This document shows, one piece after another, positions 2,224 through 6,114 of a stretch of 6,114 nt of DNA. The translations under genes were made by a program, and so were the position numbers. The DNA comes from Clostridia bacterium (GTDB lineage Bacteria; Bacillota_A; Clostridia; Oscillospirales; Acutalibacteraceae). Position 1 is the first letter of the stretch. The number at the start of each line of letters is the position of its first letter. The stretch spans positions 1-6,114 of the forward strand of contig JAILQN010000141.1 in NCBI GenBank assembly GCA_024699005.1. The letters are read 5' to 3'. The notes beneath the pieces were generated by a model that made no database searches, was not told the DNA's origin, and was given only the letters and a program-made list of their open reading frames with translations.

Positions 2224-4632
2224 ATGGATTACAGACTTACAAAAGCCAAGGCCAGAGAGCTTCTGGAGAACAAGCTGTCGCACTTTTTCGGAGTGGATTC
2301 TTCCACAGCTTCCTATGAGCAGCTTTACCGCGCCGTGGCGATGATTCTGAACGATCTTATGGCGCCGGGCAGGGCCGAATTCACCGCGAGGGGTGAAAAG
2401 GCGGGCTGCAAGCGCGTCAACTATATTTCGATGGAGTTCCTGATGGGCAGGTCTTTAAAGAACAATCTTTACAACCTGAACCTTCAGAAGACCTTCACTT
2501 CCGTGCTTAAGGACATGGGCGTCGATATAGAGCGGCTTTATGAGCAGGAACCGGACGCGGGCCTCGGCAACGGCGGTCTTGGGCGGCTCGCGGCGTGCTA
2601 TCTGGACGGCCTCGCCACCGACGAGATCCCCGCCAGGGGCTATTCCATCCTTTACGAATACGGTATCTTCAAGCAGAAGATAATCGACGGTATACAGACC
2701 GAGATGCCCGATAACTGGCTTCCCGGCGGCGACGTGTGGCTGCTCCCGCGGGAGGAGAGCGCCGTGGAGGTCCGCTTCGGCGGTCATCTCAACGAATCCT
2801 GGGACAATCAGTATCACCACGTGGAGCTGGTCGATTACGATCCTATCAAAGCCGTTCCCTACGATATGTTCGTGGCCGGCAAGGACGGCAAGGGCATCAG
2901 CGTCCTGCGCTTATGGAGCGCGAAGGCGCCCGGCATAGACATGAAGGCTTTCAACGAGGGAGCTTATCTGCGCGCGGTCGAACGCAGCGCCATGGCGGAG
3001 GTCATAAGTAAGATACTCTACCCCGAGGACAACCATCCCGAGGGCAAATCGCTGCGTCTGCGCCAGCAGTACTTCCTGGTCTCCGCTTCCGTGCAGGATA
3101 TAGTCAGAGGGCATCTGAGGCGCTATAACTCGCTGGACAATCTTGCCGAAAAGACGGCGATCCAGATCAACGATACTCATCCGACTCTGGTCATCCCGGA
3201 GCTTATGCGCATCATGCTCGACGAGTGCGGCTACGGCTGGGACGACGCGTGGAATATAGTCACACGGGTGGTCTCTTACACCAATCACACCGTGCTCAAG
3301 GAGGCGCTTGAGTGCTGGAGCGAGGACCTTGTCCGCCGCCTTATGCCCCGTATCTACGGGATCATCAAAGAGATCGACAACCGTCTGCGCGCTTTCGTGT
3401 GGAACGCCACCCGCGACGCCGCTTACGTTGAGCGCACGGCTGTTATATCCGGCGGCATAGTCAGAATGGCAAATCTCTGCGTCGCCGCCTGCCACAGGGT
3501 CAACGGCGTGTCCGAGCTGCACAGCCAGATACTGAAAGACACCGTTTTCAACGATTTCTATAAGCTCACCCCCTCCAAGTTCACAAACGTGACGAACGGC
3601 ATAGCCTTCCGCCGCTGGCTCTGCCAGGCGAATCCCGGGCTCACGGAGCTCGTCACAGAACTTATCGGCAGCGGATTCATCAAAAACAACACCGAGCTTG
3701 AGAAACTGGCGGCTTATAAGGACGACGCTGCCGTGCTTGAGAAAATAGCGGCTGTCAAGCGCGAAAACAAGGCGCGCTTTGCGAAGGCAGTCAGGAGGTC
3801 TCAGGGTATAGAGATAGACCCCGATTCCGTCTTCGACGTACAGGTAAAGCGTCTGCATGAATACAAGCGGCAGTTCCTGAACGCTCTTGAGATCCTGGCG
3901 CGCTATCTGGAGATAAAGGACAATCCGAACGGCAATTATCAGCCCCGCACTTACATCTTCGGCGCGAAGGCGGCTCCCGGCTACGTCATGGCGAAACGCA
4001 TAATCAATTTTATTTATGCCGTAATGAACATGGTCAACTCCGACCCGGACGTCAGCAAGTATATGAAGGTCGTCTACGTTGAAGACTACAACGTCACAAA
4101 AGCTGAGGCGCTTATGCCTGCGGCCGATCTGTCCGAGCAGATCTCCCTTGCCGGCACGGAGGCTTCCGGCACCGGCAATATGAAGCTGATGCTCAACGGC
4201 GCGGTCACTATAGGCACCATGGACGGAGCGAATATCGAGATCTGCGAAGCCGTGGGCAGGGACAACATCATAATCTTCGGCATGAATACCGAGGAGGTCA
4301 ACGCAGTCAAGGCCGCGGGATACGATCCCCAAAGCTATTATTACAACAACGCCGACCTGCACAGGGTCATTGATTTCATAAACAACAACGAGATCGGCGG
4401 GCAAAGGTTCTCTGACCTCGGGAACGGCATAATCCACCGCGATCAGTATATGGTGCTTGCCGATTTCGCGGATTACCGCAGGGCAAGGCAGCTCTCCGAG
4501 GAGCTGTATGCCGACAAGGCGGTCTGGGGCTCCATGTCGCTCATGAACACCGCCATGGCGGGCGCGTTCTCCGCCGACAGAGCGGTATGGGACTATGCGA
4601 GGGATATCTGGGGGACCAAGGCGGCAAAATGA
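2224..4632 (+). CDS. glgP: Glycogen/maltodextrin phosphorylase (GT35), PLP-dependent
   Basis: This enzyme cleaves terminal alpha-1,4 glucosyl units of glycogen or maltodextrin with phosphate, releasing glucose-1-phosphate in the cytoplasm. The 802-residue length is normal for bacterial phosphorylases. Family landmarks appear in order: NYISMEFLMGRSL near the N-terminus, the glycine loop GLGNGGLG (113-120), QINDTHP (314-320), YTNHTVL (352-358), NVTNGIAFRRW (455-465), KRLHEYK (542-548, the phosphate-contacting Lys/Arg/Lys set by analogy with the muscle enzyme), GAKAAPGY (580-587) and the PLP site EASGTGNMK, with the cofactor lysine at K654. Where many homologues read NGITPRRW, this one has NGIAFRRW, which I regard as a clade variant. 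The gene is complete and undamaged. It is the first gene of a rightward pair with the GH13 gene, but a 262-bp repeat-bearing gap separates them. The glycogen versus maltodextrin preference (GlgP or MalP) cannot be decided from sequence alone. Confidence 0.97.
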   Translation: MDYRLTKAKARELLENKLSHFFGVDSSTASYEQLYRAVAMILNDLMAPGRAEFTARGEKAGCKRVNYISMEFLMGRSLKNNLYNLNLQKTFTSVLKDMGVDIERLYEQEPDAGLGNGGLGRLAACYLDGLATDEIPARGYSILYEYGIFKQKIIDGIQTEMPDNWLPGGDVWLLPREESAVEVRFGGHLNESWDNQYHHVELVDYDPIKAVPYDMFVAGKDGKGISVLRLWSAKAPGIDMKAFNEGAYLRAVERSAMAEVISKILYPEDNHPEGKSLRLRQQYFLVSASVQDIVRGHLRRYNSLDNLAEKTAIQINDTHPTLVIPELMRIMLDECGYGWDDAWNIVTRVVSYTNHTVLKEALECWSEDLVRRLMPRIYGIIKEIDNRLRAFVWNATRDAAYVERTAVISGGIVRMANLCVAACHRVNGVSELHSQILKDTVFNDFYKLTPSKFTNVTNGIAFRRWLCQANPGLTELVTELIGSGFIKNNTELEKLAAYKDDAAVLEKIAAVKRENKARFAKAVRRSQGIEIDPDSVFDVQVKRLHEYKRQFLNALEILARYLEIKDNPNGNYQPRTYIFGAKAAPGYVMAKRIINFIYAVMNMVNSDPDVSKYMKVVYVEDYNVTKAEALMPAADLSEQISLAGTEASGTGNMKLMLNGAVTIGTMDGANIEICEAVGRDNIIIFGMNTEEVNAVKAAGYDPQSYYYNNADLHRVIDFINNNEIGGQRFSDLGNGIIHRDQYMVLADFADYRRARQLSEELYADKAVWGSMSLMNTAMAGAFSADRAVWDYARDIWGTKAAK

Positions 4633-4722
4633 GGTTCCGGCGATAATAAGCAGACGCTTTTATCAATGAAAATCGGCTTTGAATAATTTGCAATGTGCAA
4701 TTTTCAATGTGCAATTTCGGTT

Positions 4723-4742
4723 CATTTCTGCAAGCAGAAATG
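4723..4742. repeat. Perfect 9-bp inverted repeat in the core of element 1
   Basis: CATTTCTGC (4723-4731) and GCAGAAATG (4734-4742) are perfect complements separated by AA. In RNA this would give about an 8-bp stem with a 4-nt loop. The downstream sequence lacks a T-run, so it is not a standard intrinsic terminator. It is the only compact hairpin I see after the phosphorylase stop codon. Confidence 0.55.
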
Positions 4743-4795
4743 TGTATTGTTGCACGGCGGGATGCTGAAAATCGTGTATAGTTAAAGTGGCTATA

Positions 4796-4801
4796 TATAA
4801 T
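4796..4801 (+). promoter_or_regulatory. Candidate -10 box for the GH13 gene inside element 1
   Basis: A perfect TATAAT lies in an AT-rich stretch about 94 nt upstream of the GH13 start, within the core of element 1. No good -35 box is found at 16-18 nt (the sequence there is around TCGTGTA), so the promoter is weakly supported. If real, the GH13 gene is driven by a promoter carried by the repeat element. Confidence 0.3.
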
Positions 4802-4875
4802 CAAACACCTTATTCATTGCACATTACACATTGCACATTGCACATTATTACTTCGAAGCCTTTGTCGAAAAGCAG

Positions 4876-4881
4876 AAAGGA
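4876..4881 (+). promoter_or_regulatory. Probable ribosome binding site of the GH13 gene
   Basis: AAAGGA lies 13 nt before the ATG at 4895, a longer spacing than usual. The frame stays open upstream to a TGA at 4766-4768 and so runs through the right arm of element 1. However, 4895 is the only ATG in that stretch, and the protein starting there (MYFNSR) begins as GH13 relatives of this type do. Confidence 0.55.
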
Positions 4882-4894
4882 ACAGTCAGAAGTT

Positions 4895-6114
4895 ATGTAT
4901 TTCAACTCCCGCGACTGCCGTCACAAGCCGACTTTCGGCGCAGTCGCGGCGGGCGAAGGACAATGGTTTTCGGTGGAGATGCCCCGGGATATGGGAGTGC
5001 GCGCAGTGCGCCTCATCGCCCATACCGACGATCATTACCTGCCGGCTCAGGATCTGGAATGGAAATCCACCGACGGTTTCACCGAATGGTGGAGTACGTT
5101 CTTTACCTTCTCACAGCCCGGAATATACTTCTATCACTTCGAGTATGAGACTTCGTGGGGCACGGGGCTGATCTGCCTTGCCGGGCACGGCGCGGGGGAA
5201 TTCTCTGATTCCGGCAGCGAGTGGCAGCAGACAGTATATATGGCGAATGCGGAATGCGGAATGCGGAATGCGGAATTGGCCGGCAACAAAGTTTCTTCCG
5301 TTGGTTGTGCTGGTTTGCAGCCGTCAGATCCGGTGACCGGAATTAAGCTCAATACCGAAGATAATTCCGAATTCCGAATTCCGAATTCCGCATTTATCAT
5401 GTATCAGATCTTCCCCGACAGGTTCTTCTGTTCGGGAGAGAAAAAAAACGGAGTGCCTGCCGACCGGCGTATGCACGCCGATATGACAGATACTCCGGAG
5501 TATACAGCCGATCCGGCGACCGGCAGATGGAACAAGGACTTTTTCGGCGGGGATCTTAAAGGCATTGAACAGAAACTTGATTATCTTGCGTCTTTAGGCG
5601 TTACTCATATATATTTGAACCCCATATTCGAGGCGCACTCAAATCACCGCTACGATACCGCCGACTATACGAAGATCGATCCGCTGCTCGGCACGGAGGA
5701 GGATTTCGTCAGCCTGTGCGAAAGCGCGAAGGAAAAGGGTATAGCCGTCATCCTCGACGGCGTTTTCAGTCACACCGGCGACGACAGCGTTTATTTCAAC
5801 AAACTCGGCAGATATGGTTCCGCCGGCGCGTATAATGATCCGGATTCTCCCTACCGCCCGTGGTTCAAATTTACGCCGGACGGCGATTACGTCGCCTGGT
5901 GGGGAATAAAGACCCTGCCGGAGACTAACGAGGACGATCCCTCTTTCCGCGGATATATCGGCGAAGTCGTGAAAAAATGGCTGCGTCTCGGGGCGTCGGG
6001 TTTCCGTCTGGACGTAGCGGACGAGCTGCCGGACGATTTTATCGTATTTTTGCGAAAGGTCATCAAAACCGAAAAACCGGACGCGATACTTCTGGGCGAG
6101 GTCTGGGAGGACGC
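4895..6114 (+). CDS. GH13 alpha-amylase family enzyme (neopullulanase/cyclomaltodextrinase-like), partial, with an in-frame repeat insertion
   Basis: The gene has 406 complete codons and runs off the right edge. Residues 1 to about 115 form the N-terminal beta-sandwich typical of intracellular neopullulanase/maltogenic amylase types, ending in EWQQTVY. The catalytic barrel begins at YQIFPDRF (170-177). SNHRYDTADY (249-258) is characteristic of this GH13 group. Conserved region I is DGVFSHT (D288, H293), region II is GFRLDVADE with nucleophile D373, and region III is GEVWED with acid/base E402. The region IV Asp lies beyond the window. The expected role is hydrolysis or transglycosylation of maltooligosaccharides, branched dextrins or cyclodextrins in the cytoplasm; there is no signal peptide. 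Residues 116-169 are anomalous: they are encoded by a heptamer-array element and replace the short linker (about 15 residues, often with a TPDW-like motif) I expect from relatives. All visible catalytic residues are intact, so the gene may still be functional. Confidence 0.93.
   Translation, partial: MYFNSRDCRHKPTFGAVAAGEGQWFSVEMPRDMGVRAVRLIAHTDDHYLPAQDLEWKSTDGFTEWWSTFFTFSQPGIYFYHFEYETSWGTGLICLAGHGAGEFSDSGSEWQQTVYMANAECGMRNAELAGNKVSSVGCAGLQPSDPVTGIKLNTEDNSEFRIPNSAFIMYQIFPDRFFCSGEKKNGVPADRRMHADMTDTPEYTADPATGRWNKDFFGGDLKGIEQKLDYLASLGVTHIYLNPIFEAHSNHRYDTADYTKIDPLLGTEEDFVSLCESAKEKGIAVILDGVFSHTGDDSVYFNKLGRYGSAGAYNDPDSPYRPWFKFTPDGDYVAWWGIKTLPETNEDDPSFRGYIGEVVKKWLRLGASGFRLDVADELPDDFIVFLRKVIKTEKPDAILLGEVWED
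5246..5394. repeat. Heptamer-array inverted element 2 (149 bp, inside the GH13 gene)
   Basis: The left arm, 5246-5273, is four perfect tandem copies of AATGCGG. The right arm, 5367-5394, is CCGAATT three times followed by CCGCATT, which is the same unit type inverted (AATGCGG, then three AATTCGG on the complement). The core, 5274-5366, is 93 bp and contains a compact dyad, CCGGT-G-ACCGG (5330-5340). Short inverted similarity continues outside the arrays: ATATATG at 5236-5242 against ATACATG on the complement of 5404-5398. The element is translated in frame as residues 118-167 of the GH13 protein, giving NAECGMRNAEL on the left and NSEFRIPNSAF on the right. Confidence 0.85.

Follow-up and report, generated by a model that had tools for sequence, protein, structure and literature searches.

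The window, by which we mean the whole 6,114-nucleotide stretch of DNA analysed here, carries a glycogen phosphorylase family gene and a GH13 coding sequence, together with two short elements with inverted arms, one between the two genes and the other inside the second. The features are as follows.

2224..4632, + strand: glycogen phosphorylase family gene, upstream of element 1
4685-4846: element 1, 162 bp, in the intergenic stretch that separates the glycogen phosphorylase and GH13 genes
4685..4712, + strand: left arm of element 1, AATTTGC AATGTGC AATTTTC AATGTGC, with a fifth AAT anchor at 4713-4715
4713..4818, no strand: core of element 1, 106 bp
4819..4846, - strand: right arm of element 1, reverse complement AATGTGC AATGTGC AATGTGT AATGTGC
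4895..6114, + strand: GH13 (alpha-amylase family) coding sequence, truncated at the end of the window and host to element 2
5240..5395, + strand: 52 codons in place of the 17-residue loop of the homologue P0002 (TVY...IMYQIFPDRF)
5246-5394: element 2, 149 bp, within the GH13 coding sequence and in frame
5246..5273, + strand: left arm of element 2, AATGCGG four times, plus a fifth AAT anchor
5274..5366, no strand: core of element 2, 93 bp, open in the GH13 frame
5367..5394, - strand: right arm of element 2, reverse complement AATGCGG AATTCGG AATTCGG AATTCGG

Both elements were confirmed at these positions by a reading of the window combined with a repeat analysis, and both have the single layout ascribed to them in the preliminary description: four heptamers, a core and four inverted heptamers. 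Read inward, all four arms display five AAT anchors at 7-bp steps, the fifth being the beginning of another heptamer after the four complete ones. For inverted 28-mers at the element span, the best match was 25/28, compared to 17-19 in 20 order-1 shuffles. The period-7 scores of the four arms were 9, 19, 25 and 22; none of 200 shuffles exceeded 10, and the left arm of element 1 (score 9), taken alone, is not significant by this measure. The two arms of each element resemble one another (identity 0.86 and 0.89) more closely than they resemble the arms of the other element (0.57-0.71), a relationship that had been noticed beforehand and with which other loci agree. The cores are unrelated, as they had appeared to be, with only a 7-bp match common to both (E 0.41). 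Neither core holds a frame for an IVP gene between its arrays (for element 1, an IVP-like frame is absent among the ORFs listed). The elements do not lie in a 23S rRNA gene, the window having no Rfam match at gathering score, and the phage records contained no DNA match to them.

Element 2 stands in place of a loop of the GH13 protein. P0002, a GH13 homologue that is 96% identical in alignment (87% over the whole local match) and probably comes from the same species as the window, has 17 residues (RRGDPVRSPDRAGFPGG) between TVY and IMYQIFPDRF where the window has 52. The loop is about 13 residues long in 16 other aligned homologues (from the best 120 of 7995 matches), and the relatives L001-L004 are also without the insert (L005 ends before its position). 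It is these homologues, compared at the protein level in the case of P0002, that place the element at the loop. We propose that element 2 is tolerated inside the gene because it is open in frame, and its position suggests that elements of the IVP type described below can rewrite a protein loop in frame. Rickettsia palindromic elements are likewise found open in frame within protein genes; as they are generally described, the heptamer-array arms set the window elements apart from them. P0002 has in addition a second in-frame insert near its C-terminus (HGANVQCAKCNVQCSQDEQ...), whose residues fit an array of AATGTGC, the unit of element 1. At the protein level, this second insert is absent from the 16 other aligned homologues.

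Arrays of this kind recur in related genomes. A pattern of four AAT anchors was found in all five first relatives (draft genomes labelled Clostridia or Bacillota, analysed in one scan), with 16-61 matches each, compared to 0, 0, 0, 1 and 10 matches for a backward control of the same pattern. It was also present in 64 of 79 relatives of genome G001, giving 3254 matches versus 876 for the control. Matches per genome across these relatives range from 0 to 318, counts which are a rough guide because the backward control itself has period 7 and exceeds the AAT pattern in some genomes (in G267, by 135 to 0). The preliminary description had expected the heptamers to occur as inverted pairs, and this held in part. 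In a recount of 18 pattern-fetched arrays with 1 kb on both sides, an inverted partner (score at least 14) lay inward of five and outward of none, direct copies within 1 kb were seen for 0 and 1 of the 18, and for the remaining 13 no such partner turned up within 1 kb at this score. Across all fetched loci, many of them selected because they held IVP genes or resembled known elements, inverted partners lay inward in 30/50 and outward in 4/50, with 2 and 1 direct copies. The inward inverted tendency is real, though many arrays look single.

The elements so delimited, some of which were counted from both ends, fall into lengths of 123-238 bp (12 elements) and 403-554 bp (15), with three longer. 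The longer members (approximately 400-560 bp) hold the gene of an IVP/S23 four-helix-bundle protein: L041 and L039 contain a frame of the IVP family (for L041, TIGR02436 with E 1.1e-30), and PF05635 matches fall at the places of L039, L041 and L051. An IVP gene (PF05635) is present in all five first relatives and in none of 14 control genomes; it occurs in 64 of 196 genomes from the class, with 59 above the cut-off, and in 57 of the 79 relatives of G001, with 55 above it. The array pattern has a median of 23 matches in IVP-positive genomes (n=57) compared to 1 in IVP-negative genomes (n=22); G211 has 37 matches and no IVP match. Alongside short members of approximately 120-260 bp there are members with other cargo. 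Heptamer arrays bracket a sigma-70-family factor and a neighbour without a family match at L036:811-2533 and L037:838-2560, and a cytidine-deaminase-like protein, below curated cut-offs, at L038:534-1147. The 1.7-kb element of L036 and L037 was considered as an autonomous transposon and set aside, since it encodes the sigma factor and the protein without a family match but no recognised transposase.

Arms around the IVP genes of relatives and of plasmids are mostly period-7 arrays of free sequence. The relatives were represented by 29 loci new to the set (L196-L224), each from a different genome among the 57 with a match. Inverted arms (score at least 14) were found in 23 of these, period 7 in 43/58 near flanks compared to 1/55 far flanks, and a period-7 score of at least 10 on both sides in 21/29; the arms of L222 are not heptamer arrays. 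The plasmid set comprised all 26 plasmid records with a match, forming 21 distinct groups by shared DNA and drawn from Cyanobacteriota, Spirochaetota, Bacteroidota, Chloroflexota and Bacillota. Here, inverted arms flank 25/26 IVP genes, L249 being the sole exception, versus 0/26 at a distance and 11/104 with swapped partners, the latter matching because related Nostoc loci share units. Period 7 occurs in 41/52 near and 4/52 far plasmid flanks, with arrays on both sides (score at least 10) in 21/26, and other periods give 0-1 matches apart from the harmonic 14. The arms of plasmid locus L246 are present, although not as heptamer arrays by score, and both phage IVP loci are without arrays.

Class-wide, the association is sparser. 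This set contains 103 IVP genes, 11 from the first relatives and 92 from the class search, and leaves out two rows of G091 (C125 and C177) and class rows weaker than E 1.1e-20. Tandem period 7 (score at least 12) was found in 35/204 flanks within 300 bp compared to 1/188 at 650-950 bp, and other periods gave 0-2 matches with the exception of period 14. Inverted arms of any kind (score at least 16) occur at 20/102 loci, the flank of L128 being too short for the test, versus 4/204 with swapped partners; some of these 20 pairs (L062, L108b and L124) are not heptameric. By either measure (arms with a score of at least 14, or period 7), 31/103 IVP genes have arrays or arms, and 54/103 have neither arrays, arms nor a nearby tRNA gene, implying that arrays are not obligatory or that they decay.

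The unit sequence is free, and what is kept is the period, the register and the match of one arm to the other. Units vary by locus (AATTCGT, AAATTCA, GATTTAC, CCAGTGA, TAGTGAT, GAAAGTG, AAGTCGC and GAGGTCG, among others), and element 2 shares its units, AATTCGG/AATGCGG, with arrays beside the IVP genes of L057 and L208. At L018:1552-1650 and L051:390-570, a similar subterminal motif (..TGATACACCGCC) comes after each of the neighbouring AAT-type and AAACGCT-type arrays, such that the unit differs and the subterminal part is kept. The subterminal motif of the G001 and G005 elements was not found in the window. The ends are inverted arrays most often presenting five anchors 7 bp apart: with one reading per place, three consecutive AAT anchors were counted in 46 arrays, four in 28, five in 63, six in 10 and eight or more in 11, where fetching with a four-anchor pattern biases the low end of the counts and not the drop from five to six. 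The right arm of element 2 can additionally be read as four anchors on the opposite strand. Five chains are present in each of the solved structures of IVP relatives, 2RLD and 2GSC, and a Xanthomonas IVP-family protein is described as a homopentamer in the portion of PMC4990558 available. We infer that one IVP protomer may correspond to each anchor.

Sites differ between related species, and one is empty. The comparison of orthologous sites covered 10 of 20 fetched loci for the L041 site and 6 of 20 for the L040 site. Comparison with close relatives for empty sites, as had been proposed, was successful at the L041 site, which holds an IVP element in G001 and is empty in G211, where 8 bp separate flanks of 88-90% identity. 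At the same site, G205 has AATTCGC/AATGCGC-type arms, G208 has AATGCAA-type arms, G206 has GGGCCAA and GGGCCGA arms (GGGCCRA) and G005 has the left array only; G203 and G221 show no arrays by eye, and L179, L185 and L187 aligned too weakly to judge. At the L040 site, G211 has AATGCAA-type arms and G005 one arm, with four others aligned weakly. The two arms at a site thus change together, either by replacement or by concerted evolution. P0002 and G211 suggest that targets are replaced rather than cleanly interrupted, and no target-site duplication was found at the orthologous sites compared. A TA target duplication, which ends read by eye had brought up, was not upheld: the dinucleotides before 87 arrays include TT (16), TG (14), TA (10) and AT (10), with no single target. 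No movement of an element was observed.

These comparisons bear on the idea that the arrays are not mobile at all, but are transcript-end or mRNA-stability hairpins that have grown in place by slippage and palindrome correction. The predicted folds of the two window elements are strong (-52.7 and -60.6 kcal/mol), the arrays of L036 and L039 start at stop codons or a few bases from them, and many arrays are unpaired, all of which would suit such hairpins, as would the change of unit type at one site between species. Growth in place nevertheless sits poorly with the bracketing of one protein family across five phyla, with the position of element 2 inside a coding sequence, and with one allele (P0002) and one orthologous site (G211) that are without the element, and we regard it as unlikely.

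The window elements are short, end in terminal inverted repeats and carry no gene, and in these respects they resemble MITEs. A conventional DDE or Y1 transposase might therefore have mobilised them, with the heptamers serving as its binding sites and IVP as a passenger; the inverted arrays at the termini, the short IVP-less copies beside longer ones and the several copies per genome are in keeping with this. We nonetheless judge it improbable. The longer copies examined in relatives (L039, L041 and L051) consist of an IVP gene with no second gene, rather than a transposase-encoding element from which the short copies could derive; array ends of free sequence would hardly be tolerable for a sequence-specific transposase; and no target duplication was seen at the sites compared. 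Furthermore, 25 of 57 IVP-positive genomes have no RVT_1 or Y1_Tnp match (for example G208, with 230 pattern matches), an absence that is soft because these genomes are drafts. Eukaryotic Foldback elements also have long inverted ends built of short tandem repeats around variable interiors, and from these the window elements differ in being bacterial, much shorter and linked to IVP.

A tRNA gene lies within 400 bp of 27/103 class-wide IVP genes (L059, L060, L087, L094, L112, L113, L137-L139, L148, L150, L152 and others), with 36 tRNAs in 80,396 bp near IVP genes compared to 20 in 113,433 bp at 400-1000 bp. Many of 17 tRNA-linked loci share an order of tRNA, terminator-like hairpin, repeat array, short loop (a part-repeat of the hairpin), inverted array and IVP gene. 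In an Rfam search of 20 loci, the families recovered were tRNA, Gut-1 and a c-di-GMP riboswitch, and no others. Gut-1 RNA (RF01706) matches the leader that runs from the tRNA to the IVP gene in two of these 20 (L134:1464-1539 and L146:1453-1527), which suggests that Gut-1 forms part of an IVP element. The proximity of tRNA genes would be compatible with movement through RNA, in which IVP, like the Avd protein of DGRs, would mobilise a transcript via a reverse transcriptase supplied in trans. A weak match of IVP to Avd (NF033474, E 0.00044, 20.5 bits where the cut-off is 80) points the same way, as does the description of PF05635 as Avd-like in the accessible part of PMC10053308. Such movement appears quite unlikely to us, however, given that RVT_1 shows no association with IVP in these draft genomes (12/57 IVP-positive versus 5/22 IVP-negative). 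Y1_Tnp was found in 30/57 IVP-positive and 7/22 IVP-negative drafts. As required partners, neither a reverse transcriptase nor a Y1 transposase is supported by the genome counts.

The layout of the window elements is real and belongs to a broad class. With a probability of roughly 0.6, we conclude that elements 1 and 2 are IVP-less, non-autonomous members of a widespread superfamily of IVP elements. Their membership rests on anatomy, namely the period-7 inverted tandem arrays at both ends that they share with IVP elements, and on units shared with the IVP elements of L057 and L208, not on an IVP gene in the window. They are called non-autonomous because their cores hold no IVP gene, by analogy with the short members in relatives. 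The initial interpretation of the locus is supported in part overall, and contained neither the link to IVP genes nor the in-frame position of element 2 nor the fifth anchor.

We infer that the elements are mobile and that IVP acts in trans. The arms would form a paired stem, either in single-stranded DNA or in a transcript, and an IVP oligomer acting as a putative end-binding factor would hold the paired ends, perhaps with one protomer on each anchor. Insertion would then be guided by IVP, with no transposase, through strand annealing or template switching at a replication fork. Palindrome correction, in which one arm is copied from the other, could keep the arms alike, and slippage could change the unit. 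A still broader proposal gives IVP the role of dedicated mobility protein in a superfamily that has no transposase and spans at least five phyla. IVP would read spacing and self-complementarity (five anchors 7 apart, one for each protomer of a pentamer) over sequence, and traces of the superfamily would survive in the rRNA intervening sequences, in part of the tRNA-linked Gut-1 RNA, and in the Xanthomonas and Nostoc heptamer arrays. This we advance tentatively, as a possibility that is more doubtful than the assignment of the two window elements.

Several of these features have precedents. It had been thought that no described family has this layout, which is only partly right: the excerpts available of PMC4692102 report 70 and 75 inverted ('convergent') pairs of GGGAATC heptamer arrays in Xanthomonas. 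Those arrays, and the GGGGA(C/T)T arrays of Nostoc, were studied there as quadruplex-forming repeats, and according to the same excerpts the authors generally found no link of the Xanthomonas arrays to mobile elements. They resemble the window in being heptamer arrays, which in Xanthomonas frequently form convergent inverted pairs, but differ in the unit. In the Coxiella rRNA intervening sequence, tandem heptamers (two or three, by strain) adjoin an S23p gene, and the sequence is excised through RNase III, with mobility having been proposed earlier (PMC4990558, in part). IVP genes also occur in rRNA insertions of CPR bacteria (PMC11270868, in part), and the function of IVP (S23p) is called unknown in the passages available from both papers. 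Intervening sequences of 23S rRNA that contain an S23p/IVP gene are like the elements of the relatives in having inverted ends around that gene, whereas the window elements lie in a protein gene and in intergenic DNA, are without an IVP gene, and bear a heptamer array in each arm. Degenerate heptamers pair into a hairpin in the Nostoc tRNA-Leu intron, which is unlike the window in that they lie inside a tRNA intron, with no IVP gene described there in the excerpts of PMC3488679. TAACTGA repeats are known in Beggiatoaceae (PMC4679880, in part), and the words 'S23' and 'four helix' are absent from the text of both that paper and PMC4692102.

Among the literature matches listed, which mostly excluded subscription journals, no link between heptamer arrays and IVP genes was found beyond the Coxiella case. 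The Xanthomonas inverted pairs and the Coxiella heptamers beside one S23p gene are known, and the novelty of a general link is provisional because the literature was covered only in part. With an IVP gene placed between inverted heptamer arrays in several phyla, observations that stood apart (short palindromic elements, rRNA intervening sequences and heptamer arrays) can be brought together as a single class open to testing, whose ends of free sequence and fixed spacing are unlike those of ordinary transposons.

Some of the plasmid IVP genes have defence-like genes next to them or on both sides (L226, L229, L230, L235, L240, L248, L251 and L252). These neighbours include hsdS/hsdR, cas2/cas1, cas1, drmD with MmeI or PglX, and DUF1156/Swt1-HEPN, the last pair being found beside an IVP gene in both Chlorohelix and Gloeocapsa.
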